A program made the translations under genes and the position numbers. Below, one piece after another: positions 46,061-61,189 of a DNA stretch of 64,000 nt. The stretch is from Bacteroidales bacterium (lineage in GTDB: Bacteria > Bacteroidota > Bacteroidia > Bacteroidales > UBA932). The stretch is from contig JAFVAU010000025.1 in the NCBI GenBank assembly GCA_017480345.1, positions 62,001 through 126,000 of the forward strand, in the 5' to 3' direction. Under the pieces are notes generated by a model that saw only the letters and a list, made by a program, of their open reading frames with translations, was not told where the DNA came from and did not search any database. Positions within the stretch are counted from its first letter, which is position 1, and every line of letters starts with the position of its first letter.

Positions 46061-46525
46061 TCAACGGGCCGGTAACAGAAGCTTCAGACGGGCGACAAAA
46101 TGCATGCAGTCCATGGGGGTACTGTTGGCCAGGTCAAAGTCACGCAGGGCCACTTCAATACTGCTGGTTTCCACCTGCCGGGTTGCAGCCGGAACGGCAG
46201 GAACGGCAGGCCCGGCGCCATCCTTCCAGTTATGGAACGCCACCTCATCAACCGCGATTGGAGACTTCACCTCTATCCGGTCCGGCGTGTCCACCAGGCG
46301 CTCGTATCCACCGATATAGGATTCCAGGGAGCCGTCCGGTAGCCCCACGCTTATTGTATACTGCCCGGCAATCTTGACAAAACGGCGGGTGGGTTTCAGC
46401 GGTTTCACCTGCTTGACAAAAAGAAAGGCGGAACGCTCATACAGGTGCCAGAACATGCCTTCACGAAGCAATATCATGCGACCTGTATTTTCACTTTCCA
46501 ATGAGAGTTTTTCCAGCGTAGTCAT
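46061..46525 (-). CDS. Stand-alone MutS-like domain protein related to the DGR accessory
   Basis: 154 residues. Residues of about 17-75 (MILLREGMFWHLYERSAFLF, then RRFVKIAGQYTISVGLP) line up with the N-terminal domain of the DGR accessory protein at 51793-52488: both have G-x-F-x(3)-YERSAFLF followed by a RxVK strand. That domain resembles MutS domain I (FxxxGDFYE). The C-terminal 45 residues (PMDCMHFVARLKLLLP) differ and no Avd part is present. A second accessory or regulator of the DGR is the favoured idea, but direct evidence is lacking. Confidence 0.55.
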   Translation of the reverse strand: MTTLEKLSLESENTGRMILLREGMFWHLYERSAFLFVKQVKPLKPTRRFVKIAGQYTISVGLPDGSLESYIGGYERLVDTPDRIEVKSPIAVDEVAFHNWKDGAGPAVPAVPAATRQVETSSIEVALRDFDLANSTPMDCMHFVARLKLLLPAR

Positions 46526-49936: not shown

Positions 49937-51070
49937 TTAATACGGAAGTCCCAGCATGCGCATGTCCGGACGGTCCATGTGGGACAGATAGCCTTTGTAG
50001 GAGTTCACGCAGGCTCGGACCAGGTAGGGGTTGGGTTCAAAGGCATACGTTCTGGCAAGGTTCTCTGTCATGAGTTTGTGACAGCGTGCACTCATGTATC
50101 GATGCCCGTTTTTCACCACGCAGCCAAGAAATTGGACACCTTTCTCCTGACGCTGAAGATATATTTTCTTGGGATGCAGTGCAAGAAACAGCTTCTCATC
50201 CAGAAACTTCCGAATAGGCTCTATCAGAGAAAGCAACTTTTCCTTGCTGTTGTCCACTAGGTAAAAGTCATCTACATAGCGGCCATAGTGCTTCACTTTC
50301 AGGACCCGTTTCACATACTGGTCAAGTTCATTTAGATAAATGTTACTGAACAGCTGCGAGGTAAGGTTTCCGATAGGCAAGCCGCAGCCTTCGCGGGAGT
50401 GGAACAGGCTTTTTGTCGGAGGCAGCCCCTCCCAATCGGAGCGCTTCCCCTTCACATAACAACCTTTGGTTGGGTCATTGAAAATCACTTGCTTCAAGAG
50501 GAAGGCCATTGTAGGATATTCCGGTTCCTTATCCTTGCCTTTGGCAAGAAGAGTTGAGATTACGATATCATAGAGCCGTTGCCGATCCATGCTCATGAAG
50601 TACCCGGTCAGGTCCAGTTTCAGCACCCAGCACTCCTTGGTAAAGTTATTGGAGCAGGAACGGATATGGTGTTCCAGACGCTGGACGCCAAAAAGTGTTC
50701 CCTTCCCCACCCTGCACGAATATGAATCATAAATAAAGATGGGGTCAAAGATAGGGACAAGGTAATTATATAGCAAATGATGAACGACCCGGTCCCGGAA
50801 CGACGCGGCAAAAACTTCACGCTTTACAGGCCGTTCAATAATAAAGCAGATGCTCCGTCCCACCTTATATCGACGTGAAAGAATCTCATGATAGAGACTG
50901 ATAAGGTTTTCCGACAGATTCCGCTCAAAACGTACCTGATTATGAGTGTTCCGTTTGTTGGAACGGGCCGAATAGTAAGAAACGAAAAGGTCCGTGAGCA
51001 ATTTATCTTGATATTGACGCTCGGACGAGGCGCACGGAGTTGTAATTGCTGTTGCTGTTGGTGTTGACAT
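49937..51070 (-). CDS. DGR reverse transcriptase
   Basis: 377 residues as read from ATG 51070. The catalytic site is YVDDFYLV (residues about 265-272). Upstream, GLPIGNLTSQLFSNIYL carries the DGR-specific SQ in place of the SP of other bacterial reverse transcriptases. Other RT motifs: RVVHHLLYNYLVPIFDPIF and VLKLDLTGYFMSMDR. It copies the template repeat with errors at adenines and supplies cDNA for homing into the variable repeat. The first 15 residues are encoded inside template repeat 1, so the true start may be a downstream TTG (LLTDLFVSYY). Confidence 0.95.
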   Translation of the reverse strand: MSTPTATAITTPCASSERQYQDKLLTDLFVSYYSARSNKRNTHNQVRFERNLSENLISLYHEILSRRYKVGRSICFIIERPVKREVFAASFRDRVVHHLLYNYLVPIFDPIFIYDSYSCRVGKGTLFGVQRLEHHIRSCSNNFTKECWVLKLDLTGYFMSMDRQRLYDIVISTLLAKGKDKEPEYPTMAFLLKQVIFNDPTKGCYVKGKRSDWEGLPPTKSLFHSREGCGLPIGNLTSQLFSNIYLNELDQYVKRVLKVKHYGRYVDDFYLVDNSKEKLLSLIEPIRKFLDEKLFLALHPKKIYLQRQEKGVQFLGCVVKNGHRYMSARCHKLMTENLARTYAFEPNPYLVRACVNSYKGYLSHMDRPDMRMLGLPY

Positions 51071-51189
51071 TGCCGGAATTGAAGTTCAGGTTCACTGTAC
51101 TATCACTGCACCTATAGTTGCCTTCGGTACCACCACTATTGTTCCAGCTGCTGTTGTTGGTGTTGTAGTAGCCCGCGCAGGGCAGGAAC
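51020..51189 (-). repeat. DGR template repeat 1 (TR1)
   Basis: 170 bp, rich in AAC/AAT codons on the minus strand; translated it reads FLPCAGYYNTNNSSWNN and so on to VRLVR. It has 12 bp more than TR2 and the variable repeat (an insert of 9 plus 3 bp) and several further substitutions. No variable repeat in this window matches it. Its 3' part overlaps the start of the reverse transcriptase frame. Confidence 0.85.
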
Positions 51190-51471: not shown

Positions 51472-51629
51472 CTCGGACGAGGCGCACGGAGTTGTAATTG
51501 GTGTTGGTATTGGTATTGACATTGCTGGAATTGAAGTTCAGGTTCACCGTACTGTCGCTACACCTATAGTTGCCGTTGGTACCACTATTGTTCCAGCTGC
51601 TGTTGTAGTTGCCCGCGCAGGGCAGGAAC
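51472..51629 (-). repeat. DGR template repeat 2 (TR2)
   Basis: 158 bp, the same length as the variable repeat at 52611-52768. On the minus strand it reads FLPCAGNYNSSWNNSGTNG onward with many Asn codons, as expected for an adenine-rich template. It differs from the variable repeat at 17 positions, each an A in this template. It is therefore the donor of the present variable repeat. Confidence 0.95.
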
Positions 51630-51792: not shown

Positions 51793-52488
51793 TTAAGCCT
51801 TAACCGTTCTGCGGAGTCCTTCAAGTTGCCTGCTCACGGAATCAATCCTTTCGCTGTTAACGGCAAAGGATTCCACCGAAATCTGTTTCTTGTCCTTCAG
51901 CACTTGCAGAACAAAAAGCAGCTCGGAACATTCCTTTTTCAAAGTATCTATAGCGTGTTCCCTGTCTGATACATCATAGAGCGTTCTCACACCATAGCAT
52001 ATAGAGTAAGACAATCTCTTTGCAAAAATGGCATACGGATCCCACATATTCTTTTCCACATGTTTGGTCAAGTCCAAAAGATGCAGGAGGGCGTCATAGG
52101 CCGTTTTATATACAGGCTGATGCTCGATGACACTGGTGTGCGGTGTATAGCGCTTGTCCTCTTTCGCATCGACGGAAGCCAATTCCCTCCAATTCTCATA
52201 CTCCGCTTCATCCACCTGTTTCCCAATCTCACAACAGAACAGTCGCTCGTTGATTTGATTGCAGGGCCAGTCATGCAGCCATTTCCGGAGAGAAGCCTTA
52301 GGAAACCTCAACGAAATCATATTGCGGTTGACCACCTTTACATAGCGATAGCTCAACTTAAATGGAGATACATACCGATGGAAAAGGAAGGCAGAGCGCT
52401 CATACGCAGCCAAAAAATCTCCTTCTACATACAAGTATATCAAATTTGTATTGGAATCCTCCGTATTTAAAATTTCCGCAAAAGTCAT
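51793..52488 (-). CDS. DGR accessory protein: MutS-like domain fused to Avd-like bundle
   Basis: 231 residues. Residues of about 15-110 form a MutS domain I-like module (LIYLYVEGDFLAAYERSAFL, then YRYVKVVNRNMISLRFPKAS). Residues of about 125-231 are all helical and basic (TAYDALLHLLDLTKHVEKNM, FAKRLSYSICYGVRTLYD, VSRQLEGLRRTVKA), matching the four-helix Avd family that forms pentamers and binds the reverse transcriptase and template RNA. It sits between target gene and TR2, as expected of an avd gene. The fusion makes a separate avd unnecessary. Confidence 0.75.
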   Translation of the reverse strand: MTFAEILNTEDSNTNLIYLYVEGDFLAAYERSAFLFHRYVSPFKLSYRYVKVVNRNMISLRFPKASLRKWLHDWPCNQINERLFCCEIGKQVDEAEYENWRELASVDAKEDKRYTPHTSVIEHQPVYKTAYDALLHLLDLTKHVEKNMWDPYAIFAKRLSYSICYGVRTLYDVSDREHAIDTLKKECSELLFVLQVLKDKKQISVESFAVNSERIDSVSRQLEGLRRTVKA

Positions 52489-52502
52489 ATCTCTTTTAAA
52501 AA

Positions 52503-52527
52503 TTCCCGCGCGCCGGGCGCGCGGGAA
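52503..52527. terminator. GC-rich perfect hairpin upstream of the accessory gene
   Basis: Arms TTCCCGCGCGC and GCGCGCGGGAA (11 bp, no mismatch) with loop CGG. It lies 15 bp before the accessory ATG at 52488. As a terminator it would separate target and accessory expression; it lacks a clear T tract, so it may instead act as a DNA or RNA structure of the retroelement. Confidence 0.6.
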
Positions 52528-52550
52528 ATCCTACAAAGCGTCAACTGCAT

Positions 52551-52601
52551 AAGTCCCGCCCTTTCGCTCGCAGCCCCGATAGGCTACTGGCGGCGGGACT
52601 T
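52551..52601 (-). other. Inverted repeat just after the variable repeat
   Basis: Arms AAGTCCCGCC and GGCGGGACTT (10 bp, perfect) around 31 bases, starting 10 bp beyond the end of the variable repeat and overlapping the target stop codon. DGRs of phage and bacteria carry a hairpin or cruciform just after the variable repeat that promotes homing. This one has a longer loop than the known cases, so the role is inference. Confidence 0.55.
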
Positions 52602-54507
52602 ATTCATAATCTCGGACGAGGCGCACGGAGTAGTAATCGGTGCTGGTACTGGTATTGACATCGCTGGAACCGAAGCCCAGGTACACCGTACTGTCGCTAC
52701 ACCTATAGTAGCCGTAGGTACCACTATAGTACCAGCCGCTGTTGTAGAGGCCCGCGCAGGGCAGGAACGCACAACCACCTTCAATCAACTCATCTATATT
52801 CTCCTTCGAGATTTCCGCAAAAGCAGCACCAGCCATATTTGCATTCGCAAAATCATAGTAGATGGTTGCCCCATCCGGGAAGAGTAACAGGCCCTGCAAA
52901 TAAGCTGCGCCTGCCGTAGCACTGTAACCGGTATAACCATTCGGGACACCGTCTCCCGAAGAAGCGTTCGCTGCAATACCATTCAGCCCTATAATCTTTA
53001 CCTTGGTGTAATACTTACCACTCTGGTTGGCCGTACCATTGAGCGTAATAGTGGCTCCAGTACGAGAAGTACTTCCAATCCATTTTTTCAGTTCGTCCTC
53101 CTTAGGAGCACGCCAATCGGTTCCATAAGAATCATCGAACGATGTAACGGATACGGCAGCGTTGAAGTATGCCTGAAGACTAGTGCTAGGAGAACCAGCA
53201 GAACCCTGATTATTATAGTACTGCAGGTTAGCAAGATACGACGCACCATTAGTCCAAGTGGTACCTGATTTGATTGCATTACCCGGTGCCAGAATGACAC
53301 CGCCAATTCCGGCGCCTCCGGAAACAGGATTATCATACGTCGTCACCGTCACGGTGGCCGTCTTGGTGTCATCGTAGTACGTCATCCTGAAGGTCATTTC
53401 GACGGATTCGCCGGCTGCTACACCAGCCTTCGCACGTACCTTGATCACCGTTGCACCGTCATCCGTTGTGACCAAGTCTTCCACCACACCGTCACCATTA
53501 TTATCAATACGAGTAATGGTTGCCGCAGTGATCGCCACCGGAGTAGCCTGCTTATCCGCCGCAGCGTAGGTCAATGTGGTCCAATTGCCATCATTAGAGG
53601 CGTCACCGATACGAGTATTTGCATCCGTAATGACAAAGCTGCCAATTCTGTACTCATTGGACGTAATATCCATGGAAATCTTCCTGCCGCTCGCACGGGA
53701 AATGCTTCGGACATTGTCATTGGAAGCACCGGAAAGCTGGGTACCACCGCCGTCGGCCGCATTATAGGCCTCAACACTGAGCGTGCTGTATGCGCCGACC
53801 GGAATCGGGACATTCAGGACAACACCGTCGGTATCGGTAGCAAAAGCGCTGGAGAAATTGAACGTGACCGTATTTGATGAAGCCGATCCCGAGGTTGAGA
53901 TCGTGGGCGTAGCCGTTCCGGGGTTTTCTACCGTGAAAGTGCCCGTGATCTGCTTGTCAGTAGTCACCACAATGCTTCTGGTAGTTTCGGGAACATTATT
54001 CAGCGTAATGCGGAAAATACCTCCCAGATGTTTGAAGGCAAGCGCCGTACTGGGGGAATTCACTGCAATCATGGGCAGCGGAGAAAAAGTATCCATACTG
54101 CCGTCAATCGTGTAGGAGGAAGGCAGGGTAATGGTAGGAGCACTGGCGCTACCACCTGCCATCGAAGCAGGATAAATGGCATAGCCGTCACGGTCAGTAT
54201 CATTCATCTCCGCCGTGAAAACGCCGGAAGCCGTGCCAGCACCGCTCTCCAGCGTAGCCGTCATCCAATACGGGATGCTGGTATGAACCGCAATCTTGTC
54301 GCCTTCCGTCCAACTGAAAGCACCGGAAGCCGTGCTGATGTCCACCTTGGTGGCGTCCTCGTCCTGCACATTCTCGATAGTGGCAGTAAGTTTAATCTTG
54401 TCGGCCGGCGCTTTTTCGTTTCCGCCGACTTCTTCATGGCTACATCCCGCCGCGGCAAGCAGCAGTGACGGGATAAGTGCCCCGAACAAACATTTTTTCA
54501 TTTTCAT
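52600..54507 (-). CDS. DGR-diversified fimbrillin-like surface lipoprotein
   Basis: 635 residues. Lipoprotein signal LLLAAAGCSHEE (Cys about 22). Residues of about 35-290 are a fimbrillin-like domain (ASGAFSWTEGDKIAVHTS, YAIYPAS, FKHLGGIFRITL). A middle domain follows (residues about 290-400), then a C-type-lectin-like domain with WRAPKEDELKKWIG and LQGLLLFPDGATIYYD. The last 55 residues are the variable repeat (FLPCAG to VRLVRDYE). It should display a variable binding site on the cell surface, with the fimbrillin part as anchor or polymer subunit. Overlaps nothing; 21 bp after the upstream fimbrillin. Confidence 0.92.
   Translation of the reverse strand: MKMKKCLFGALIPSLLLAAAGCSHEEVGGNEKAPADKIKLTATIENVQDEDATKVDISTASGAFSWTEGDKIAVHTSIPYWMTATLESGAGTASGVFTAEMNDTDRDGYAIYPASMAGGSASAPTITLPSSYTIDGSMDTFSPLPMIAVNSPSTALAFKHLGGIFRITLNNVPETTRSIVVTTDKQITGTFTVENPGTATPTISTSGSASSNTVTFNFSSAFATDTDGVVLNVPIPVGAYSTLSVEAYNAADGGGTQLSGASNDNVRSISRASGRKISMDITSNEYRIGSFVITDANTRIGDASNDGNWTTLTYAAADKQATPVAITAATITRIDNNGDGVVEDLVTTDDGATVIKVRAKAGVAAGESVEMTFRMTYYDDTKTATVTVTTYDNPVSGGAGIGGVILAPGNAIKSGTTWTNGASYLANLQYYNNQGSAGSPSTSLQAYFNAAVSVTSFDDSYGTDWRAPKEDELKKWIGSTSRTGATITLNGTANQSGKYYTKVKIIGLNGIAANASSGDGVPNGYTGYSATAGAAYLQGLLLFPDGATIYYDFANANMAGAAFAEISKENIDELIEGGCAFLPCAGLYNSGWYYSGTYGYYRCSDSTVYLGFGSSDVNTSTSTDYYSVRLVRDYE
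52611..52768 (-). repeat. DGR variable repeat (VR)
   Basis: 158 bp encoding residues about 580-632 of the target. Compared with TR2 there are 17 substitutions and no indel; every one replaces a template adenine (minus-strand sense). They change 14 residues, mostly Asn to Tyr, Gly, Ser or Asp and one Asn to Leu. The ends CTCGGACGAGGCGCACGGAG (plus strand) and CCCGCGCAGGGCAGGAAC are unchanged and serve as homing anchors. Confidence 0.96.
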
Positions 54508-54528: not shown

Positions 54529-55749
54529 TTAATCCCAATTGACACCTTCCCCGGAGTTGCCGCCCTGGGTGGTCATGCCATCCCAGGAGACATCCTCGGA
54601 ATTGCTTCCTCCCATGGAGGCCATGCCGCCCCACACAATGGCGCCGTCATCCGTACCGGCGCCCACAATGTTGGACTGTCCGTCCCAGGTGATGGTCTCG
54701 CCGCCGGACGTCACGTCAATATTGCCATCCCAGTTGATTCCTTCACCCTCACCCACGATACCGTTGATGTAAGGGAAAGTGAGGCCGTAGATACGGTACT
54801 TCCTGGCACCCACGAAAGTGAGCGGCGTACCGTTCACATCCAGTGAAAGCGTCCGAGTTCCAATCTGCGTTCCCGTGAAGGAGATGGTGAGCGTGTTCAG
54901 GTCCTGAGGCAGTGCGAAAACGGTTATTATGAGCGTCTGGCCTGCTGTGAGTTCGATGGGGTCGCCATTGGAGTCCTTCAGTGTCACTGTGACCGATGTT
55001 TCACCTTGCGAACAGCTGAGGGTCTCGGCCCCGACTGTACCGGCGATGGTGAACATACCGGACAGGGCATGGGCGGCATCCGTGGTGGACAGGCTGAAGC
55101 CGGTTAACGTAAGCGCACTTGTCTGCCGGGTGCTGGGCGCTATCTCCAACTGAAAGGCGGTAAACTTGGGAACGAACTGCAAGTCCACACTGCTGTTGGG
55201 CGCCGTGCTGGTGGAAGCATACATGTAAGCATAATCCATGTCCGGAGCCCCGACAACGGTTGTTCCGGAAGTCCAGGTGAGCGTCTGCTCCGCAGGAATG
55301 GTCCCGGTCACCGTGACCGCATTACCGGCGCCAGCCACTATTGTGCTGGCGGCATTGGTGGCGGTGGAAGGATAAATCGCATAGAAGTAATGCGGGTTGT
55401 CTTCCCCCCACACAAGTCCATGCTCATGGGTAGAGGCCACCGTGGCAACGCTGGTGGTGCCGCTTGTACTCACACCGTTCACCACGCAGTCGTCAAAGTG
55501 GTTGGACGCATCTTCCTGAAGGCCGGCTTGCGGGCAGTAAATGCGGACCACATCCCCCTCTGCCCAATGAAGCATCTGGTAGGTCTGGGAAGTGTTCTCA
55601 ATGTCTCCATAAACCGTTTTTGTATTGGGCGTCCCGGATGCGCTGTATGCCTTGGCACGGAACGTAATCCCCTCCCCGGCACGCGGTGTTTTTGTGCAGG
55701 AAAGCGCGGTTACAAGAAGTACGACAAATAATAGCGAAAGTCTTTTCAT
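54529..55749 (-). CDS. Fimbrillin-family lipoprotein
   Basis: 406 residues from ATG 55749, where a lipoprotein signal starts (VLLVTALSCTKTPRAGEG). Body of fimbrillin type: YQMLHWAEGDVVRIYCPQAG, HYFYAIYPSTA, FVPKFTAFQLEIAPS. The last 75 residues contain four to five short repeats ending in WDG or WGG (NWDGNIDVTSGG, TWDGQSNIVG, SWDGMTTQGG). Co-transcribed with the DGR target 21 bp downstream; probably a structural partner on the cell surface. Confidence 0.82.
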   Translation of the reverse strand: MKRLSLLFVVLLVTALSCTKTPRAGEGITFRAKAYSASGTPNTKTVYGDIENTSQTYQMLHWAEGDVVRIYCPQAGLQEDASNHFDDCVVNGVSTSGTTSVATVASTHEHGLVWGEDNPHYFYAIYPSTATNAASTIVAGAGNAVTVTGTIPAEQTLTWTSGTTVVGAPDMDYAYMYASTSTAPNSSVDLQFVPKFTAFQLEIAPSTRQTSALTLTGFSLSTTDAAHALSGMFTIAGTVGAETLSCSQGETSVTVTLKDSNGDPIELTAGQTLIITVFALPQDLNTLTISFTGTQIGTRTLSLDVNGTPLTFVGARKYRIYGLTFPYINGIVGEGEGINWDGNIDVTSGGETITWDGQSNIVGAGTDDGAIVWGGMASMGGSNSEDVSWDGMTTQGGNSGEGVNWD

Positions 55750-55763
55750 ATTCCTTTCCTCCA

Positions 55764-55955
55764 TCAATTCCATTCATGGTTGAACCCGCTGTCGGACGCA
55801 TCTATCTGCTCCAGTTCCTGCGCAGATGACTTCATGCCAGAGGCATTGATGTCATTCACCACGCTGCCGGCAAGGATTTCCTGCTCCATCTCAACCTCGT
55901 ACCGCTTAAGGACGAGGGGGGGAGAATAAAACTGTTTCTTGCGTTTGAATTTCAT
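55764..55955 (-). CDS. Small conserved-looking protein before fimbrillin genes
   Basis: 63 residues, no signal peptide or membrane helix. Basic start KFKRKKQFYSPPLVLKRYEV, then EMEQEILAGSVV and an acidic C-terminus ending SGFNHEWN. Similar short proteins with SPPxxLxxYEVEMExxILAGS are, from memory, common ahead of Bacteroidales lipoprotein genes, but their role is not known. Located between upxY and the fimbrillin gene, 14 bp from the latter. Confidence 0.6.
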   Translation of the reverse strand: MKFKRKKQFYSPPLVLKRYEVEMEQEILAGSVVNDINASGMKSSAQELEQIDASDSGFNHEWN

Positions 55956-55973: not shown

Positions 55974-56510
55974 TTAGGATTCACTGTTCACTTTTTCCAG
56001 CCACGCCCTGGGAACCCGGGCCTTGGCGAACACCAGGCCGGCAAGGCTCACTACCACGTAGAGTTTGCCTTGAAGTTCCAGCACATTGCCTTCCACGCCC
56101 TGCAGAGGGCCCTTGATAACACGGACGCGGTCTCCCACACGCAGGGGCTTGTCCATCAGCCCTCCCTCCTGGATACTTGTCTGGAACACCCGCTGGAAGT
56201 CTTCCATCTCCTTGTCGTCCACTGTCATGATGCTGTGTGTGGCATGGTCTATCAGGAACGACATGGGGACATAGCTGCGGTTCACCAAATCCGTAGCCTC
56301 CCGCTTGGTGGCTTTCAGGAATACCAGATTGGGAACTACCGCGCATTCATGCGTTCCCCCGCCACGGGTCTTTTTCCGGCGAACCGTTGGAACGAAGTTC
56401 TCCACACCAAGGCCCGTGAGCAGGTCTCGCACCTTTATCTCCCAACGGAAATACCGCGTATGGGCCACATACCAGCATGCAGGCTGTATCATTGCACCGG
56501 AAACTGCCAT
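55974..56510 (-). CDS. UpxY-family transcription antiterminator (NusG paralogue)
   Basis: 178 residues from ATG 56510, 2 bp after the upstream stop. N-terminal NGN domain: ACWYVAHTRYFRWEIKVRDL, ENFVPTVRRKK, AVVPNLVFLKATK. C-terminal KOW domain: LRVGDRVRVIKGPLQGVEGN (residues about 125-145). UpxY proteins bind RNA polymerase at the leader of their own capsule operon and suppress early termination. Here the gene comes second, after the sugar transferase, and may serve the long downstream operon including the DGR genes. Confidence 0.88.
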   Translation of the reverse strand: MAVSGAMIQPACWYVAHTRYFRWEIKVRDLLTGLGVENFVPTVRRKKTRGGGTHECAVVPNLVFLKATKREATDLVNRSYVPMSFLIDHATHSIMTVDDKEMEDFQRVFQTSIQEGGLMDKPLRVGDRVRVIKGPLQGVEGNVLELQGKLYVVVSLAGLVFAKARVPRAWLEKVNSES

Positions 56511-56512
56511 GG

Positions 56513-57847
56513 CTAAAACTCCTTTCCACTGACAATGCTCAGGAACGTCAGTCCCAACACTTTGGCATCGAACCAAAGGGACTGGTTCCTCAGGTAATAC
56601 AGGTCAAGGTCCAGACGCGTGAGCATCTTGTCCATCGTGTCTGTATACCCATTGTAAAGCGTAGCATAGCTGGTAACGCCGGGACGGATCTGGTACAGGT
56701 ATGAGTACCGGGGGTTACGCTGCATGATTTGCTCTATATAAACCTCACGCTCCGGACGATAACCGATGAACGACATGTCTCCACGGAACACATTCCACAG
56801 TTGGGGCAGTTCATCCAGATGGTGACGCCGCAGAAAACCGCCCACCCGCGTGAGACGGGAGTCGTTCTCGCCGGCATACAAGTGCGCGCCGTCTTTCTCG
56901 GCATCGGTCCGCATGGAGCGGAACTTAAGGATGTAGAAAGGCTTCCCTCCCCTCCCCATGCGTTCCTGCCGGTAAAGAATTGGTCCTCCATCCTCTAACT
57001 TGACAAGGAGGGCGCACAGAAGTGAAAGTGGTGAGAAAATGATGAGCAGTGCACCGGAGAGAAGAATGTCAAAGGCGCGCTTGAGATACTGGGAGGGACG
57101 GGACATGGTTGAAATGTCGGCCATGGCAGTATCCGACGTAGCCTGAGTACCGGACGACACCGAGGGCTGGTCCTTCGAGAACAGATTCCGCTTAGGGAAA
57201 AAGACGCAGTCAATTCCTCCCAGCTGGATTTCCAAATTCTTGATATCCTCCGGTTGCGACACATGGAAAACAACGACATCGGAAATGACACGTCCCGACA
57301 TATTGGGATTGTCCGTCAGGAAGCCTACTACATTGTATTGTTTTGACAACTCTCTGGCCAGGGCGACCGAAGGAGTGTCCGTACCATATACAAGGGCATT
57401 GCGCAAGGAGGCCCGGGTCTTGACTTTCTCCACCTCTGTCTTGGAGAAAACACGCACGGCAAAACGGATATAGAATAGCTCCAACCCGGTAATGAGGGCG
57501 TCTGTCATGACCGCCAAAACGCTTAATGCCATTGACGGGAAATGCACCAGACCTATTATTAATATAACGACAAGGAGGACCTCCTTAATCAGAATACAGG
57601 TAATAAGGCGGGCCGTGGAACGGACGGTAGCCCAGCGGCGGACCACCCGGTGGCTGCCCGAGAGGATCTCCCCCACAAGCGATGCGCATAGCGCCGCTCC
57701 AAGCCAAACAAGAACAGTCTGCGTATAATTGGGGACAGGGTCACTCAACCATCGGACCAACAACACCGACAGCAAAGATGCCGCTAGTGACAAGGCACAA
57801 TCCTGAAGCAGGATAATCCCCGCTCCAGAATACCGGCCAGAATACAT
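56513..57847 (-). CDS. Initiating sugar transferase (WcaJ/WbaP type)
   Basis: 444 residues from ATG 57847. The longer frame starting at 58015 runs through the inverted-repeat segment and was rejected. N-terminal half with four helices (CALSLAASLLSVLLVRWL, LLVVILIIGLVHFP) and a Rossmann-like middle (ALVYGTDTPSVALAREL). The C-terminal catalytic domain has KRAFDILLSGALLIIF, PILYRQERMGRGGKPFYILK, SRLTRVGGFLRRHHLDELPQ and GDMSFIGYRPE. Transfers the first sugar phosphate to undecaprenyl phosphate. First gene of the operon, so its expression depends on the invertible segment just upstream. Confidence 0.93.
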   Translation of the reverse strand: MYSGRYSGAGIILLQDCALSLAASLLSVLLVRWLSDPVPNYTQTVLVWLGAALCASLVGEILSGSHRVVRRWATVRSTARLITCILIKEVLLVVILIIGLVHFPSMALSVLAVMTDALITGLELFYIRFAVRVFSKTEVEKVKTRASLRNALVYGTDTPSVALARELSKQYNVVGFLTDNPNMSGRVISDVVVFHVSQPEDIKNLEIQLGGIDCVFFPKRNLFSKDQPSVSSGTQATSDTAMADISTMSRPSQYLKRAFDILLSGALLIIFSPLSLLCALLVKLEDGGPILYRQERMGRGGKPFYILKFRSMRTDAEKDGAHLYAGENDSRLTRVGGFLRRHHLDELPQLWNVFRGDMSFIGYRPEREVYIEQIMQRNPRYSYLYQIRPGVTSYATLYNGYTDTMDKMLTRLDLDLYYLRNQSLWFDAKVLGLTFLSIVSGKEF

Positions 57848-57882
57848 ACTATTGTGTTGCTTTTCAGTCACTTCCTTAAACA

Positions 57883-58042
57883 ATCTTTTTCGCAGAGACT
57901 TTTTAATTGAATAAGCAACTGAAAATAAGCGCGATACGAGAATTTTTGGTGTAATGTGCACCAAAATATCCACTAATATGGTTTGTTTTTCCGTATAATT
58001 TTCATACCTTTGCAAGGTAGAAAAAGTCTCTGCGAAAGAGAC
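57883..58042. promoter_or_regulatory. Putative invertible promoter segment, OFF orientation
   Basis: Inverted repeats of 22 bp at 57883-57904 and 58021-58042 match at 20 positions, with an uninterrupted 17-bp core TTTCGCAGAGACTTTTT. They enclose 116 bp that hold a perfect Bacteroidetes promoter directed to the right, away from the sugar transferase whose ATG is at 57847. Inversion between the repeats would aim it at the operon. The neighbouring tyrosine recombinase at 58083 and the Mpi-like invertase at 60629 are candidate catalysts. The layout follows that of the phase-variable capsule promoters of Bacteroides fragilis. Confidence 0.82.
57982..58012 (+). promoter_or_regulatory. Bacteroidetes promoter inside the invertible segment
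   Basis: TTTG at 57982-57985 and TACCTTTG at 58005-58012, spaced 19 bp, matching the TTTG-N19-21-TAnnTTTG consensus. Predicted start near 58019, just at the right inverted repeat. No plus-strand gene follows; downstream lies the 3' end of the integrase gene on the other strand. Confidence 0.85.
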
Positions 58043-58046
58043 TTTT
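58022..58046. terminator. Bidirectional hairpin terminator in the right inverted repeat
   Basis: AAAAGTCTCT and AGAGACTTTT form a perfect 10-bp stem with loop GCGAA, ending in T runs on both strands. It can end the leftward integrase transcript and also the rightward transcript of the OFF-oriented promoter, which starts only a few bases before it. The left inverted repeat lacks this hairpin because of its sequence differences. Confidence 0.7.
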
Positions 58047-58082: not shown

Positions 58083-59069
58083 TTACGATTGCACCTTTCT
58101 GTCCCGCATCAGCCGGTCGATAACCGTGCGGTTGGCCGCATCGATTAACCCCTGGTCCAAGTCGGCCAGGTATATTCTTGTGGTTTTTTCGCTGGTATGC
58201 CCCATCCCCGCGCTGATAACAGAGATGGGCACATCCGCATTGCGGGCCATCGTCGCCCACGAGTGCCTTGCCGTTAACGTAGAAAGTTGGAAAGGGATAT
58301 GGCAGCGAGCCCCTATCTCTTTCAGCAATAAGTTGTGACGTTGAAGTTGGTACTCATAGTCCTTGAACGCCCGGGCTGGGTCCCCGTTCTGGATAATGGG
58401 GAATACATAATTGTCATAACACAGCCTGTAATACCGCTCAATGATTGCCACCATGCAAGGTTCCAGCTTCACGCACAGACGTTGTCCAGTCTTGCTTCTC
58501 ACATAATCAATCTCTCCCTTTTTCAGGCAGATATTGTCATGGGTAAGGTGAGCCATGTCCACAAAGCACATTCCACGGGCATAAATACTGAAAAGGAACA
58601 AATCGCGGGTGAAAGCAAGTTCCGGCTCGGCCGACAAATCCAGTGAAACAATCTGCTGCAACGACATCAAGTCCAGCGCCCGCTTGCTGGTCTTGTCAAT
58701 GCCGGTATACACATCCGCAAACAGGCGGTTTTCATAAGGCACAATCCCCTCTTTTGCCGCCCGGTTATACACGGCCCGCAGAATCCGGTTATAAAAAGAG
58801 ACGGTATTGCGCACGCTGCCGCTATTGTACAAATAGCAATTGTATTGGAACAACAGCTCAGGAGAAAGATCCTGCATCATAAAAGAGTTTTCTCCCTCAA
58901 ATTTGGAGAAACTCCGGTACGTGTTCCGGTAGTTGCGGCAGGTGGACAGTTTTCCCGCAGTTTCCAAACGCGAGCAAATGAGCGCAAAGTAATCCTTGAC
59001 AGAAACAGATTTGTGTGTGTACATAACTTTAACAATTAAAGAATCATAATCTTCAAAAGTTACGAACAT
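58083..59069 (-). CDS. Tyrosine site-specific recombinase
   Basis: 328 residues (an alternative ATG at 59024 gives 313). Core-binding domain with SVKDYFALICSRLETAGKLS and SGSVRNTVSFYNRILRAVYN. Catalytic domain: first Arg in FSIYARGMCFVDMAHLT, box II STLTARHSWATMARNADVP (Arg-His, with the usual first His replaced), and GHTSEKTTRIYLADL holding His and the nucleophile Tyr. In Bacteroides such recombinases next to capsule operons invert promoters. It lies 40 bp from the putative invertible segment. Confidence 0.9.
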   Translation of the reverse strand: MFVTFEDYDSLIVKVMYTHKSVSVKDYFALICSRLETAGKLSTCRNYRNTYRSFSKFEGENSFMMQDLSPELLFQYNCYLYNSGSVRNTVSFYNRILRAVYNRAAKEGIVPYENRLFADVYTGIDKTSKRALDLMSLQQIVSLDLSAEPELAFTRDLFLFSIYARGMCFVDMAHLTHDNICLKKGEIDYVRSKTGQRLCVKLEPCMVAIIERYYRLCYDNYVFPIIQNGDPARAFKDYEYQLQRHNLLLKEIGARCHIPFQLSTLTARHSWATMARNADVPISVISAGMGHTSEKTTRIYLADLDQGLIDAANRTVIDRLMRDRKVQS

Positions 59070-59144: not shown

Positions 59145-59450
59145 TCACAGATTCCTTACTCCGCCCTGCTCATAAAAGTAAACGCGAAGAACCTGCCCCC
59201 GTAGCAGCACTATCTTGTCAAAGGTGAATACCAGCCTTCTCTCGCTATTAGGGTCCACTGTCCCCATTCCTGTACTCTGTCCGGGGAAGACCACCTTCTC
59301 ATATTGCAGTCCCCGGCGTGTCCGCCTCCGGCTCTCCACCACAAACCATGGAGTGGAAAGCTCATAGCTCAGCGCCGAATCATTCTTAATGGTAAACATC
59401 AGATAAAGCACATCATCCTTCACCGCGATATTTGTACACAGAATCTCAGC
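59145..59450 (-). pseudogene. 3' fragment of a TraN/DUF4138 conjugation gene
   Basis: About 100 residues with stop at 59145. ILCTNIAVKDDVLYLMFTIK followed by NDSALSYELSTPWFVVES and a late VYFYEQGGVRNL resemble the C-terminal part of TraN-type (DUF4138) proteins of conjugative transposons. The frame is lost near 59450, where IS66 sequence begins on the other strand. Remnant of an integrative conjugative element. Family assignment moderate. Confidence 0.6.
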
Positions 59451-60583
59451 GGAAGCCGTCCGGCAGGAAGTCCGGCGGGCAGAAGGGGCATCAGGGCAGT
59501 ACCCGACTCCAGTCCGAGAATGTCACCGGAGTGGAACGCTGGTATCCTGCGGCAGTGTGCCCGCAGTGCGGAAAGCCGCTGGACATGGACGCGGCCAAGG
59601 TGTTCGACCATCTTCAGATGCAGGTCAAGTGTTCCTGTGGCCACTGCTGCAAAGGGCAGTTCCCGGAGAATGTGAATGCGCCGGTGTCCTACGGCCCCAA
59701 CATCATGGCCATGACCTCGTACCTGAGCACCTATCAGAACGTCCCGTTCAAGCGCCTCACGCATCTGTATGAGACCATCTTCGGGCTCCATATGAGCGAA
59801 GGCTCCGTGTCTAACATGCTGAATGCGATGCGCAAACTCTCCAAGACGCCCTACGAGATGATCAGGCAGAGAGTCGCAGGCGGTAAGGTGGCCGGATCCG
59901 ACGAGACCGGAGTCAACGTCGGCGGCAAGAACAACTGGTTTTGGACTTTCCAGAACGAGGTTGTGACCTACATCGCCTTTGACAAGAGCCGTGGCCACGA
60001 GGTCGTCAACAAGCACTTCTCTCAGGAGGAGCAGGGCGGGATGGTTTGGGTTACTGACCGCTGGCCGACATACTTTATGGACGAAGTCGGGATGGATGAC
60101 CATCAGATATGTATTGCCCATCTGTTGCGGAATCTTACCTATACGATGCAGGCCTTTCCTGATGACGCCTGGAGCCTGGACATGCTGGACCTTCTGCGGG
60201 ACTCCGTCCATCAGCGGAACCAGGGAAACATCGGGACGGAAGTGAGGATAAAGATGGAGGAGAGGCTGGACGAGCTTCTTGCCAGACCGCCCATATACAC
60301 CAGCGAAGACGGGAAAGACACCGCTCTGGACAAGCTCAAGAAGAGCATTGCCAAGCATAAGGACCACGTCTTCACCTTCCTGACTAATCCGGATGTTCCG
60401 CCTACCAACAACGACAGCGAGAACCGCCCGGCCAAGACCAAACTCAAGGTCAGCGGATGCTTCCGCTCCGAGACCGGCGTGGAGAACTACGCCACCGTCG
60501 CCTCCATCATCCAGACGGCGGTCAAGAACGGGCAGAACCCCTTCGAGGTCCTCCGGGTCATTACGACCCTTGTTCTGGCGTAG
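59432..60583 (+). pseudogene. IS66 transposase (TnpC), N-terminally truncated
   Basis: 383 residues. The zinc-binding part (PAAVCPQCGKPLDMDAAKVF, CSCGHCCKGQFPENV), the catalytic region with GSDETGVNVGGKNNWFWTF and VTDRWPTYF, then the third acidic motif NPDVPPTNNDSENRPAKTKL are present. The usual first 90-100 residues with the leucine zipper are missing, and the first few residues are read from foreign sequence. Presumed inactive. Plus strand, unlike its neighbours. Confidence 0.8.
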
Positions 60584-60650
60584 TATCATTGCTTGAATCA
60601 TTGTTGACAAGTGGTCACGGCCTACGGCCTATGGCTGGGGAACCAGAGTA
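59445..60650 (+). mobile_element. IS66-family element remnant
   Basis: The left boundary cuts the traN frame near 59450 and removes the first part of the IS66 transposase. The right boundary near 60650 coincides with the premature end of the DNA invertase gene. No inverted terminal repeats or accessory tnpA/tnpB genes of IS66 are visible, so the remnant is probably immobile. Boundaries approximate. Confidence 0.6.
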
Positions 60651-61189
60651 GTTACAATTTTTCTTTGTGAGCACCCGCTGTTGAGCATCTGAGCAATTGT
60701 TTCGGCCTTGTCATCCAACTTGTAATGCTTGTTCCTGGAACCAATCTGCCGTCCCAGTACAGCCCCTTCGGCCCGCTTCCGGCTCAACGCTTCCCGGGTA
60801 CGCTGGCTGATTAGCTGGCGCTCTATTTCGGCAGACAGCCCGAAAGCAAACGCCAGAACCTTGGACTGTATGTCATCCCCAAGCCGGTATCCTTCCTTTA
60901 TCGTCCACACTCTGCACTCCTTCTCCATGCACGTGTTAAGGATATTCATAATCATAAATAGGCTGCGACCCAAGCGGGACAGATCTGCACATATGATAAG
61001 GTCACCTTTTTTCACATGCGCCAGCAGGCGCCCAAGCTTCCGCTCTTCCGCCTGTTTTGTTCCTGAGATGGTTTCCTGAATCCATCCGTCCACAACAAGA
61101 TGTTCTTTTTGGCAAAAACTATTGATTTCGTAGCGTTGATTAGCCACGGTCTGACGGTCCGTACTGACCCTGATGTAACCGTAAATCAT
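60629..61189 (-). CDS. Mpi-like serine DNA invertase, 3' truncated
   Basis: 186 residues. Serine recombinase fold: YGYIRVSTDRQTVANQRYEI with the nucleophile Ser at residue 9, ICADLSRLGRSLFMIMNI, and EIERQLISQRTREALSRKRA. The C-terminal DNA-binding domain begins (GSRNKHYKLDDKAETIAQML, then CSQRK) but ends in VTTLVPQP exactly where IS66-related DNA starts, so the recognition helix is probably lost. In Bacteroides fragilis the Mpi invertase flips several capsule promoters. Activity of this copy is doubtful. Confidence 0.85.
   Translation of the reverse strand: MIYGYIRVSTDRQTVANQRYEINSFCQKEHLVVDGWIQETISGTKQAEERKLGRLLAHVKKGDLIICADLSRLGRSLFMIMNILNTCMEKECRVWTIKEGYRLGDDIQSKVLAFAFGLSAEIERQLISQRTREALSRKRAEGAVLGRQIGSRNKHYKLDDKAETIAQMLNSGCSQRKIVTTLVPQP

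Follow-up and report, generated by a model that had tools for sequence, protein, structure and literature searches.

A predicted invertible promoter and its neighbouring tyrosine recombinase gene upstream of a wcaJ-UpxY operon in a Bacteroidales genome

Introduction

In Bacteroides fragilis, the large-capsule (LC, EPS) promoter IVp-I is an invertible promoter beside which the gene of a tyrosine recombinase, Tsr19 (BF2766), is located. The EPS operon includes a WbaP-type initiating glycosyltransferase, BF2782, and was OFF in the three genome sequences compared, according to the parts of the two reports drawn on here (PMC3090145, PMC4747536). The PS promoters of the same organism are inverted by the serine recombinase Mpi, which acts on many regions (PMC4747536, in the part drawn on), and the Mpi repeats are given as ARACGTTCGTN in the corresponding part of another report (PMC8375218).

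A survey of invertons in gut Bacteroidota states, in the sections used here, that UpxY genes are enriched among the genes that an inverton can drive, and that tyrosine invertases are enriched beside invertons, mostly oriented so that the inverton promoter cannot drive them (PMC11892184). The predicted switch described below belongs to this already known kind, in that UpxY and invertase genes beside invertons had been reported there; within those sections, the likeness is one of gene association. As for DGRs, type V pilus tip proteins of Bacteroides are diversified by such elements (Macadangdang et al., via the review PMC12632263), and the consulted parts of that review treat DGRs and invertible promoters in separate sections.

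Here we describe a locus in a 64,000-nucleotide stretch of Bacteroidales DNA (the window), in which a promoter segment of invertible design lies between a tyrosine recombinase gene and a wcaJ-UpxY operon predicted to end in a DGR target.

Results

Inverted repeats and core sites

The features in and beside the segment are as follows.

58083..59069, - strand: tyrosine recombinase, 328 aa, PF13102 and PF00589 (40.8 bits)
58022..58046: hairpin AAAAGTCTCT-GCGAA-AGAGACTTTT, made up of the right arm plus its outer flank; the scan calls it terminator-like on the + strand
58021..58042: right inverted-repeat arm, with the core site at 58027-58041 (TCTCTTTCGCAGAGA, - strand)
57982..58012, + strand: Bacteroidetes-type promoter TTTG-N19-TACCTTTG, aimed at the recombinase 3′ end (OFF)
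57905..58020: segment predicted to invert, 116 bp
57883..57904: left inverted-repeat arm, with the core site at 57884-57898 (TCTTTTTCGCAGAGA, + strand)

The two arms match at 20 of 22 positions and share a 17-bp perfect core (57888-57904 and 58021-58037); a wider call places them at 57879-57904 and 58021-58046 (26 nt, 88%), with 116 nt between. This 17-bp pair is the longest perfect inverted repeat in the 64 kb for gaps of 40-1000 nt, the next longest being 13 bp, and when the window was resampled 30 times under a first-order Markov model, the longest was 15 and none attained 17. The 116-bp segment between 22-bp inverted repeats proposed in the first-pass annotation was thus confirmed. The window core can be written TCTCT-TTCGC-AGAGA. 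One half-site change distinguishes the left core from the right, while the spacer and the inner half-sites are identical between the two arms.

In the source assembly (2.22 Mb: 2,220,095 bases in 46 contigs, 91% complete), the 17-mer of the arm occurs at these two places only, and the 15-nt core site with 0-1 mismatch is represented by this pair alone; with 2 mismatches it occurs at three further places, a number equal to that of its reversed control. Across 101 genomes of the genus, the 17-mer was found only in the window's own genome, and the opposite orientation was not met. Among viral contigs it was found in two stretches; none of the 16 window proteins tried has a homologue in the DNA there, and the flanks, compared by eye, are unlike those of the window. 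A plasmid search with the region gave no match, and no Rfam element was found in the 64-kb window. Another dyad, TTTTGGTG-N7-CACCAAAA, lies within the segment at 57944-57966, just upstream of the promoter -33 box; it is possibly a regulator site, and would travel with the promoter.

The promoter and the hairpin

The segment promoter faces away from the wcaJ-UpxY genes, the first of which starts at 57847. It is one of four matches with a score of 18.5 on both strands of the window (eight matches were obtained with the other pattern). When its coordinates are mapped onto the inverted segment, its -7 box would end about 65 nt upstream of the wcaJ start. The highest promoter score in the 300 nt preceding wcaJ is 12.5 on the same strand, as against 18.5 on the opposite strand, and no - strand match of at least 16.5 was found from 57847 to 52600 by the consensus scan. 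The earlier claims of a consensus promoter directed away from the operon (TTTG-N19-TACCTTTG, + strand, 57982-58012) and of the lack of another promoter for the operon therefore both stood, the latter within the consensus scan. An E. coli-type promoter was set aside, as the scan for it gave nothing inside the segment, and a wcaJ reading frame beginning with a TTG at 58015 and crossing the segment was treated as chance.

The right arm and its outer flank form a hairpin of 10 bp, for which folding is predicted on both strands (with flanks, -12.7 kcal/mol, z -2.45, and -15.4 kcal/mol, z -1.71). By contrast, the left arm read toward wcaJ gives a poor predicted fold (-4.2 kcal/mol, z +1.16). Since the inner half-sites are identical, the hairpin would stay on the recombinase side after inversion. 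Judging from these predicted folds, the right-arm hairpin would stop the OFF transcript and separate the recombinase gene from the operon.

The recombinase gene

The recombinase gene lies 41 bp from the right arm, as had been noted (40 bp). Its reading frame is intact, and R165, K193, R268, H291, and Y300 are present. In an alignment of the window recombinase with 34 of 47 others, namely those without an inner stop in frame, the residues K193, R268, H291, and Y300 occur in all 35 sequences and R165 in 30. The histidine of the HxxR motif is a usual residue of tyrosine recombinases; at its position the window recombinase has L265, and 33 of the 35 sequences have Y. The locus thus has two attributes of an inverton: inverted repeats flanking an outward-facing promoter, and a nearby recombinase with an intact active site.

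Genes of an IS66-type transposase and a serine resolvase (PF03050, PF00239) lie at 59432-61189, upstream of the recombinase gene, hinting at a past rearrangement. The serine recombinase gene among them (60629-61189, PF00239) is 2.6 kb away. Control by an Mpi-type serine recombinase was rejected, as the adjoining recombinase is of the tyrosine type and the repeats have the form of that family's sites.

The operon behind the segment

The following genes are found on the other side of the segment.

56513..57847, - strand: initiating sugar transferase, wcaJ-like (PF02397)
55974..56510, - strand: UpxY-family antiterminator (NF033644, 118.2 bits against a cut-off of 100; scanned as 55974-56576)
55764..55955, - strand: small ORF of 63 aa between the UpxY and lipoprotein genes, from sequence reading
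54529..55773, - strand: putative secreted lipoprotein with no Pfam, NCBIfam, or PDB match
52600..54507, - strand: DGR target, putative lipoprotein (Lcl_C match under the Pfam cut-off), with the variable repeat at 52611-52768

The second gene is assigned to the UpxY antiterminators by its NF033644 score above the cut-off. All five lie on the - strand with successive gaps of 21 nt or less, the 63-aa ORF overlapping the start of the lipoprotein gene by 10 nt. The closely packed unit is therefore wcaJ, UpxY, the small ORF, the lipoprotein gene, and the DGR target (57847-52600), and the operon would extend to the DGR target.

UpxY matches were obtained in 43 of 200 genomes of the genus, and 20 loci near the top of the list were compared. 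wcaJ adjoins UpxY in 18 of the 20, and a homologue of the lipoprotein follows UpxY in 10, while no recombinase was found in the stretches around any of them. A same-strand promoter with a score of 17.5-18.5 occurs 28-98 nt before wcaJ in 6 of 17 wcaJ loci of the genus, so the distance of about 65 nt predicted for the flipped promoter would be a common one. This support is mild, because promoters of at least 17.5 also occur on the opposite strand in 7 of the 17 loci, several of them with a divergent OmpA-type operon; in 8 of the 17, no same-strand promoter above 15.5 was found within 300 nt before wcaJ. The window looks like a core surface-polysaccharide locus whose promoter came under a recombinase. 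Among the genomes examined, the recombinase was also found beside wcaJ or UpxY in four others (G017, G066, G133, and G165).

The DGR and the reach of the switch

Downstream of the DGR target, these features are found.

52488..52600, - strand: two hairpins with strong predicted folds, a U run following the second one, between the target and the DGR accessory gene
51793..52488, - strand: DGR accessory-type gene, with homologues beside the RT in 5 of 10 RT loci of relatives
51472..51629, - strand: template repeat a
51020..51189, - strand: a further template-like repeat, b, running into the start of the RT ORF
49937..51070, - strand: DGR-type reverse transcriptase, RT (PF00078)

Between the variable repeat (52611-52768) and template a (51472-51629), 17 of 158 positions differ, all of them at an A of the template. 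Such a template and variable repeat pair, differing at template adenines and lying beside an RT gene, is what identifies a DGR, and this one may have two template copies. The two hairpins at 52488-52600 together give -57.7 kcal/mol (z -4.95), and the consensus scan found no promoter before the accessory gene. The RT may be expressed by read-through, with the help of UpxY, or from an unrecognised promoter. The block from 45897 on (DUF3575, OmpA) has its own consensus promoter at 46020-45989, for which reason its control by the segment promoter alone was set aside.

The first-pass annotation held that the surface locus as a whole is probably phase variable, DGR genes included. This is supported in part: the five packed genes through the DGR target (57847-52600) would follow the switch. 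For the rest the claim is too broad, since terminator-like hairpins stand ahead of the DGR accessory and RT genes, and the OmpA block has a promoter of its own. Apart from this, the small protein encoded at 46061-46525 resembles the N-terminal part of the accessory protein (51793-52488), and both match the same RT-adjoining genes in four relatives (L146, L147, L148, and L151).

Of 200 genomes, 11, the window's own among them, encode a similar RT (E up to 1e-60). Around the 10 other RT loci of the genus, neither wcaJ or UpxY homologues nor a dyad-site pair were found in stretches of 4-18 kb, two of which (L147 and L149) had less than 2 kb of upstream DNA; one locus (L153) has a distant recombinase homologue with 25% identity. 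Judged from the sampled sequences, the pairing of a DGR with the switch seems special to this genome. Among the papers listed by our literature searches for a DGR together with an invertible promoter, none was evidently on the pairing.

Paired sites beside related recombinases

Of 400 genomes sampled from the genus, 34, including the window's own, have recombinase homologues (E up to 1e-55). The set of 48 loci consists of the 46 matches plus C19 and C34, two weaker matches from the window's own genome; L051 and L052, identical over the segment and flanks, are counted as two. Under a strict rule (two inverted 15-mers, each agreeing at 9 or more of 12 positions with TCTCTT-N3-AAGAGA, with at most 2 differences between them and the same five central bases), inverted dyad pairs were found in 25 of the 48 loci. 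Of these, 18, the window among them, have the window layout, both sites lying within 600 nt beside the recombinase 3′ end; in 5 others the sites flank the recombinase gene itself, one has a long 3′ segment, and one has its pair on the 5′ side. Comparison DNA of 292,011 bases (30 loci chosen for UpxY or RT) contained no dyad pair, and resampling gave one locus with a pair in 20 x 48.

The figure of 25 of 48 is partly circular, because these loci also served to derive the dyad consensus and the searches select for agreement within a pair; this circularity does not touch the comparison counts or the finding that loci share their half-sites. In a search made without the dyad consensus, repeats scoring above 11 lay on the 3′ side at 19 of the 48 loci, as against a single locus with one on the 5′ side. 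Among the 23 loci in which the strict search gave no pair, 5 (L040, L074, L048, L053, and L049) have pairs outside the consensus. Eleven weaker recombinase homologues (E 1e-33 to 1e-38) showed no repeat above 11 at the 3′ side, and among 5 relatives in named genomes a clear 3′-side pair was found only in L034 and L036. The records of these relatives (Parabacteroides, Tannerellaceae, and Prevotellaceae), together with the promoter type, point to the order Bacteroidales.

For a comparison of the sites, 26 arm cores were chosen, with L074, L084, L094, L051, and L052 left out; two cores longer than 15 nt (L053 and L049) were not counted. In the remaining 24, the half-sites hardly vary, positions 3 and 13 being shared by all, while positions 7-9 vary by locus. 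The spacers of tyrosine-recombinase sites must match between partners, and the shared half-sites with locus-specific spacers thus fit sites of this type. Pairs with 1-2 differences occur, as in the window, at six other loci (L084, L043, L044, L045, L094, and L051/L052).

Some of these loci deserve separate description. The window's own genome has a second predicted invertible promoter in identical copies (G000:C19:40217-40386 and G000:C34:6008-6177), both OFF and before a putative secreted lipoprotein; this reflects a duplication or an assembly artefact. A lone site with the same spacer lies at G000:C8:81918-81930. Since this spacer differs from that of the window, the two systems should not cross-react. 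In L038 (G017:C101, 1970-3116), the recombinase gene itself sits between inverted sites, with wcaJ-UpxY on one side and an OmpA-type operon on the other; in L053 (G066:C76, 1040-3142), such a site-flanked recombinase gene lies between two head-to-head wcaJ genes. Both segments have an outward promoter near one end (scores 17.5 and 16-16.5, respectively). A segment of this type would be an either/or selector of two surface operons, carrying its own recombinase. Dyad sites flank the recombinase gene in four more relatives (L085, L050, L100, and L088). Judged by eye, what lies behind the segment seems to be UpxY together with ClpV and sheath genes of a contractile system in L093, DNA methylase genes in L075, and a large helicase in L043; the switch family is thus perhaps not confined to capsules.

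Promoter direction and contig ends in relatives

The segments of window layout number 21 when L040, L074, and L048 are added to the 18 found by the strict rule. Promoters scoring at least 16.5 in these 3′ segments point toward the recombinase (OFF) in L003 (the window), L044, L090, L093, L094, and L051/L052. They face the other way (ON) in L041 and in L040/L074, the latter two being 99% alike, and the direction is unclear in 9 of the 21. The two directions were encountered in different relatives only. The labels "ON" initially given to L087 and L096, and also L039, were dropped, their repeats being without the dyad. Only L040 and L074 form a near-identical pair across different genomes, and their segments are oriented alike. 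Their inner segment matches the opposite strand of L094 at 74% over 50-54 nt, which, as the genes behind the segments differ, may be taken as a weak hint of inversion.

One contig ends on the core site (L083), and another at the outer edge of a 19-nt arm (L088). In all, a contig end falls within 300 nt of the recombinase 3′ end in 5 of the 48 loci and within the same distance of the 5′ end in 1. Repeats of 15-25 nt alone should not break an assembly, so mixed orientation is a likely cause.

Discussion

Taken together, the sites, the promoter, the gene order, the asymmetry of the predicted hairpin folds, and the recurrence of the same design in many relatives very probably mean that the local tyrosine recombinase inverts the 116-bp promoter segment, and that this inversion is a phase switch of the wcaJ-UpxY operon, now OFF. 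The recombinase encoded at 58083-59069 would recombine the 15-nt dyad sites at 57884-57898 and 58027-58041. In the sequenced orientation, the promoter would fire toward the recombinase 3′ end, the right-arm hairpin would end the transcript, and the operon would be OFF. In the inverted orientation, the promoter would lie about 65 nt before wcaJ, and wcaJ, UpxY, the small ORF, the lipoprotein gene, and the DGR target would be ON. The leader would then be free of the hairpin, because only the right arm together with its outer flank forms it. The hairpin, lying on the recombinase side in both states, would also end the recombinase transcript, so that the recombinase gene and the operon would be insulated from each other.

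Three other explanations were weighed. The segment may be a relic, of invertible origin and now locked OFF, for example by the mismatch in the left half-site or by low expression of the recombinase. The left core (TCTTTTTCGCAGAGA) does differ from the right at one half-site position, and the occurrence of wcaJ-UpxY without a recombinase in all 20 fetched stretches of the genus implies that the switch is dispensable. We nevertheless consider a relic unlikely, given that the recombinase reading frame is intact with its catalytic residues, that the spacer and the inner half-sites are identical, and that pairs with 1-2 differences are found at the six other loci. Roughly the same low probability attaches to a segment that does invert while the operon is mainly transcribed from another start, by read-through or from a non-consensus promoter, in which case the switch would matter little. 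The absence of another promoter refers to the consensus scan, and the 8 of 17 wcaJ loci without a same-strand promoter above 15.5 suggest that non-consensus promoters may serve. Against this, transcripts coming from the recombinase gene would meet the predicted hairpin, and the - strand has no match of at least 16.5 from 57847 to 52600.

The third explanation takes the right arm to be simply the terminator of the recombinase gene, the left arm a chance or duplicate copy, and the promoter a source of antisense RNA to the recombinase end. The 10-bp hairpin of the right arm on both strands (z -2.45 and -1.71) and the promoter facing the recombinase would agree with it. It is very improbable in view of the 17-bp perfect pair, unreached in 30 resamples, the paired sites at the recombinase 3′ end in 18 of the 48 loci, and the reversed promoters in L040, L074, and L041. 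Inversion of the promoter segment by the neighbouring recombinase thus remains the preferred reading.

On this reading, a well-defined promoter switch with its own site pair would be added to a large Bacteroidales genus. It also predicts the site form of the recombinase family, with shared half-sites and a locus-specific spacer, and this form in turn predicts phase-variable operons in these genomes. What is unusual is that the switched operon would include a DGR target. If this target is co-controlled, promoter inversion and retroelement mutagenesis would act on one surface protein. A plausible, somewhat doubtful extension is phase-gated hypermutation, in which the target would be made only when the promoter is ON, and the templates and RT perhaps too, through UpxY-assisted read-through of the hairpins. 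If this is true, a population would combine on/off control of a surface polysaccharide and protein with targeted diversification of that protein.

Among known systems, the DGRs of the Bacteroides type V pilus tip resemble the one in the window in diversifying a surface-protein gene, and, as far as the consulted part of the review describes them, they differ in that the window target would be the last gene of a wcaJ-UpxY operon preceded by a promoter of invertible design. The Mpi-controlled PS promoters resemble the window in that a short promoter segment of invertible design precedes a capsule locus containing UpxY. Their repeats are, by eye, unlike the window arms, and UpxY comes second in the window, after wcaJ. 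The design had been said to mirror the invertible capsule promoters of B. fragilis; this is apt for the large capsule with its local tyrosine recombinase Tsr19, and does not extend to the PS promoters, which the part of the report used here assigns to the serine recombinase Mpi (PMC4747536). The Tsr19 (BF2766) large-capsule switch appears to be the closest described system that we found. In the consulted parts of its descriptions it has the same layout, a local tyrosine recombinase, a promoter of invertible design, and an initiating sugar transferase behind it, the two recombinases being likened here by gene layout. In those same parts, Tsr19 also inverts a distant promoter, whereas the window's 91%-complete assembly has one site pair at 0-1 mismatch, a search in which diverged sites could be missed. 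The operon of Tsr19 has Wza and Wzc homologues, and that of the window has UpxY, a lipoprotein gene, and a DGR target.
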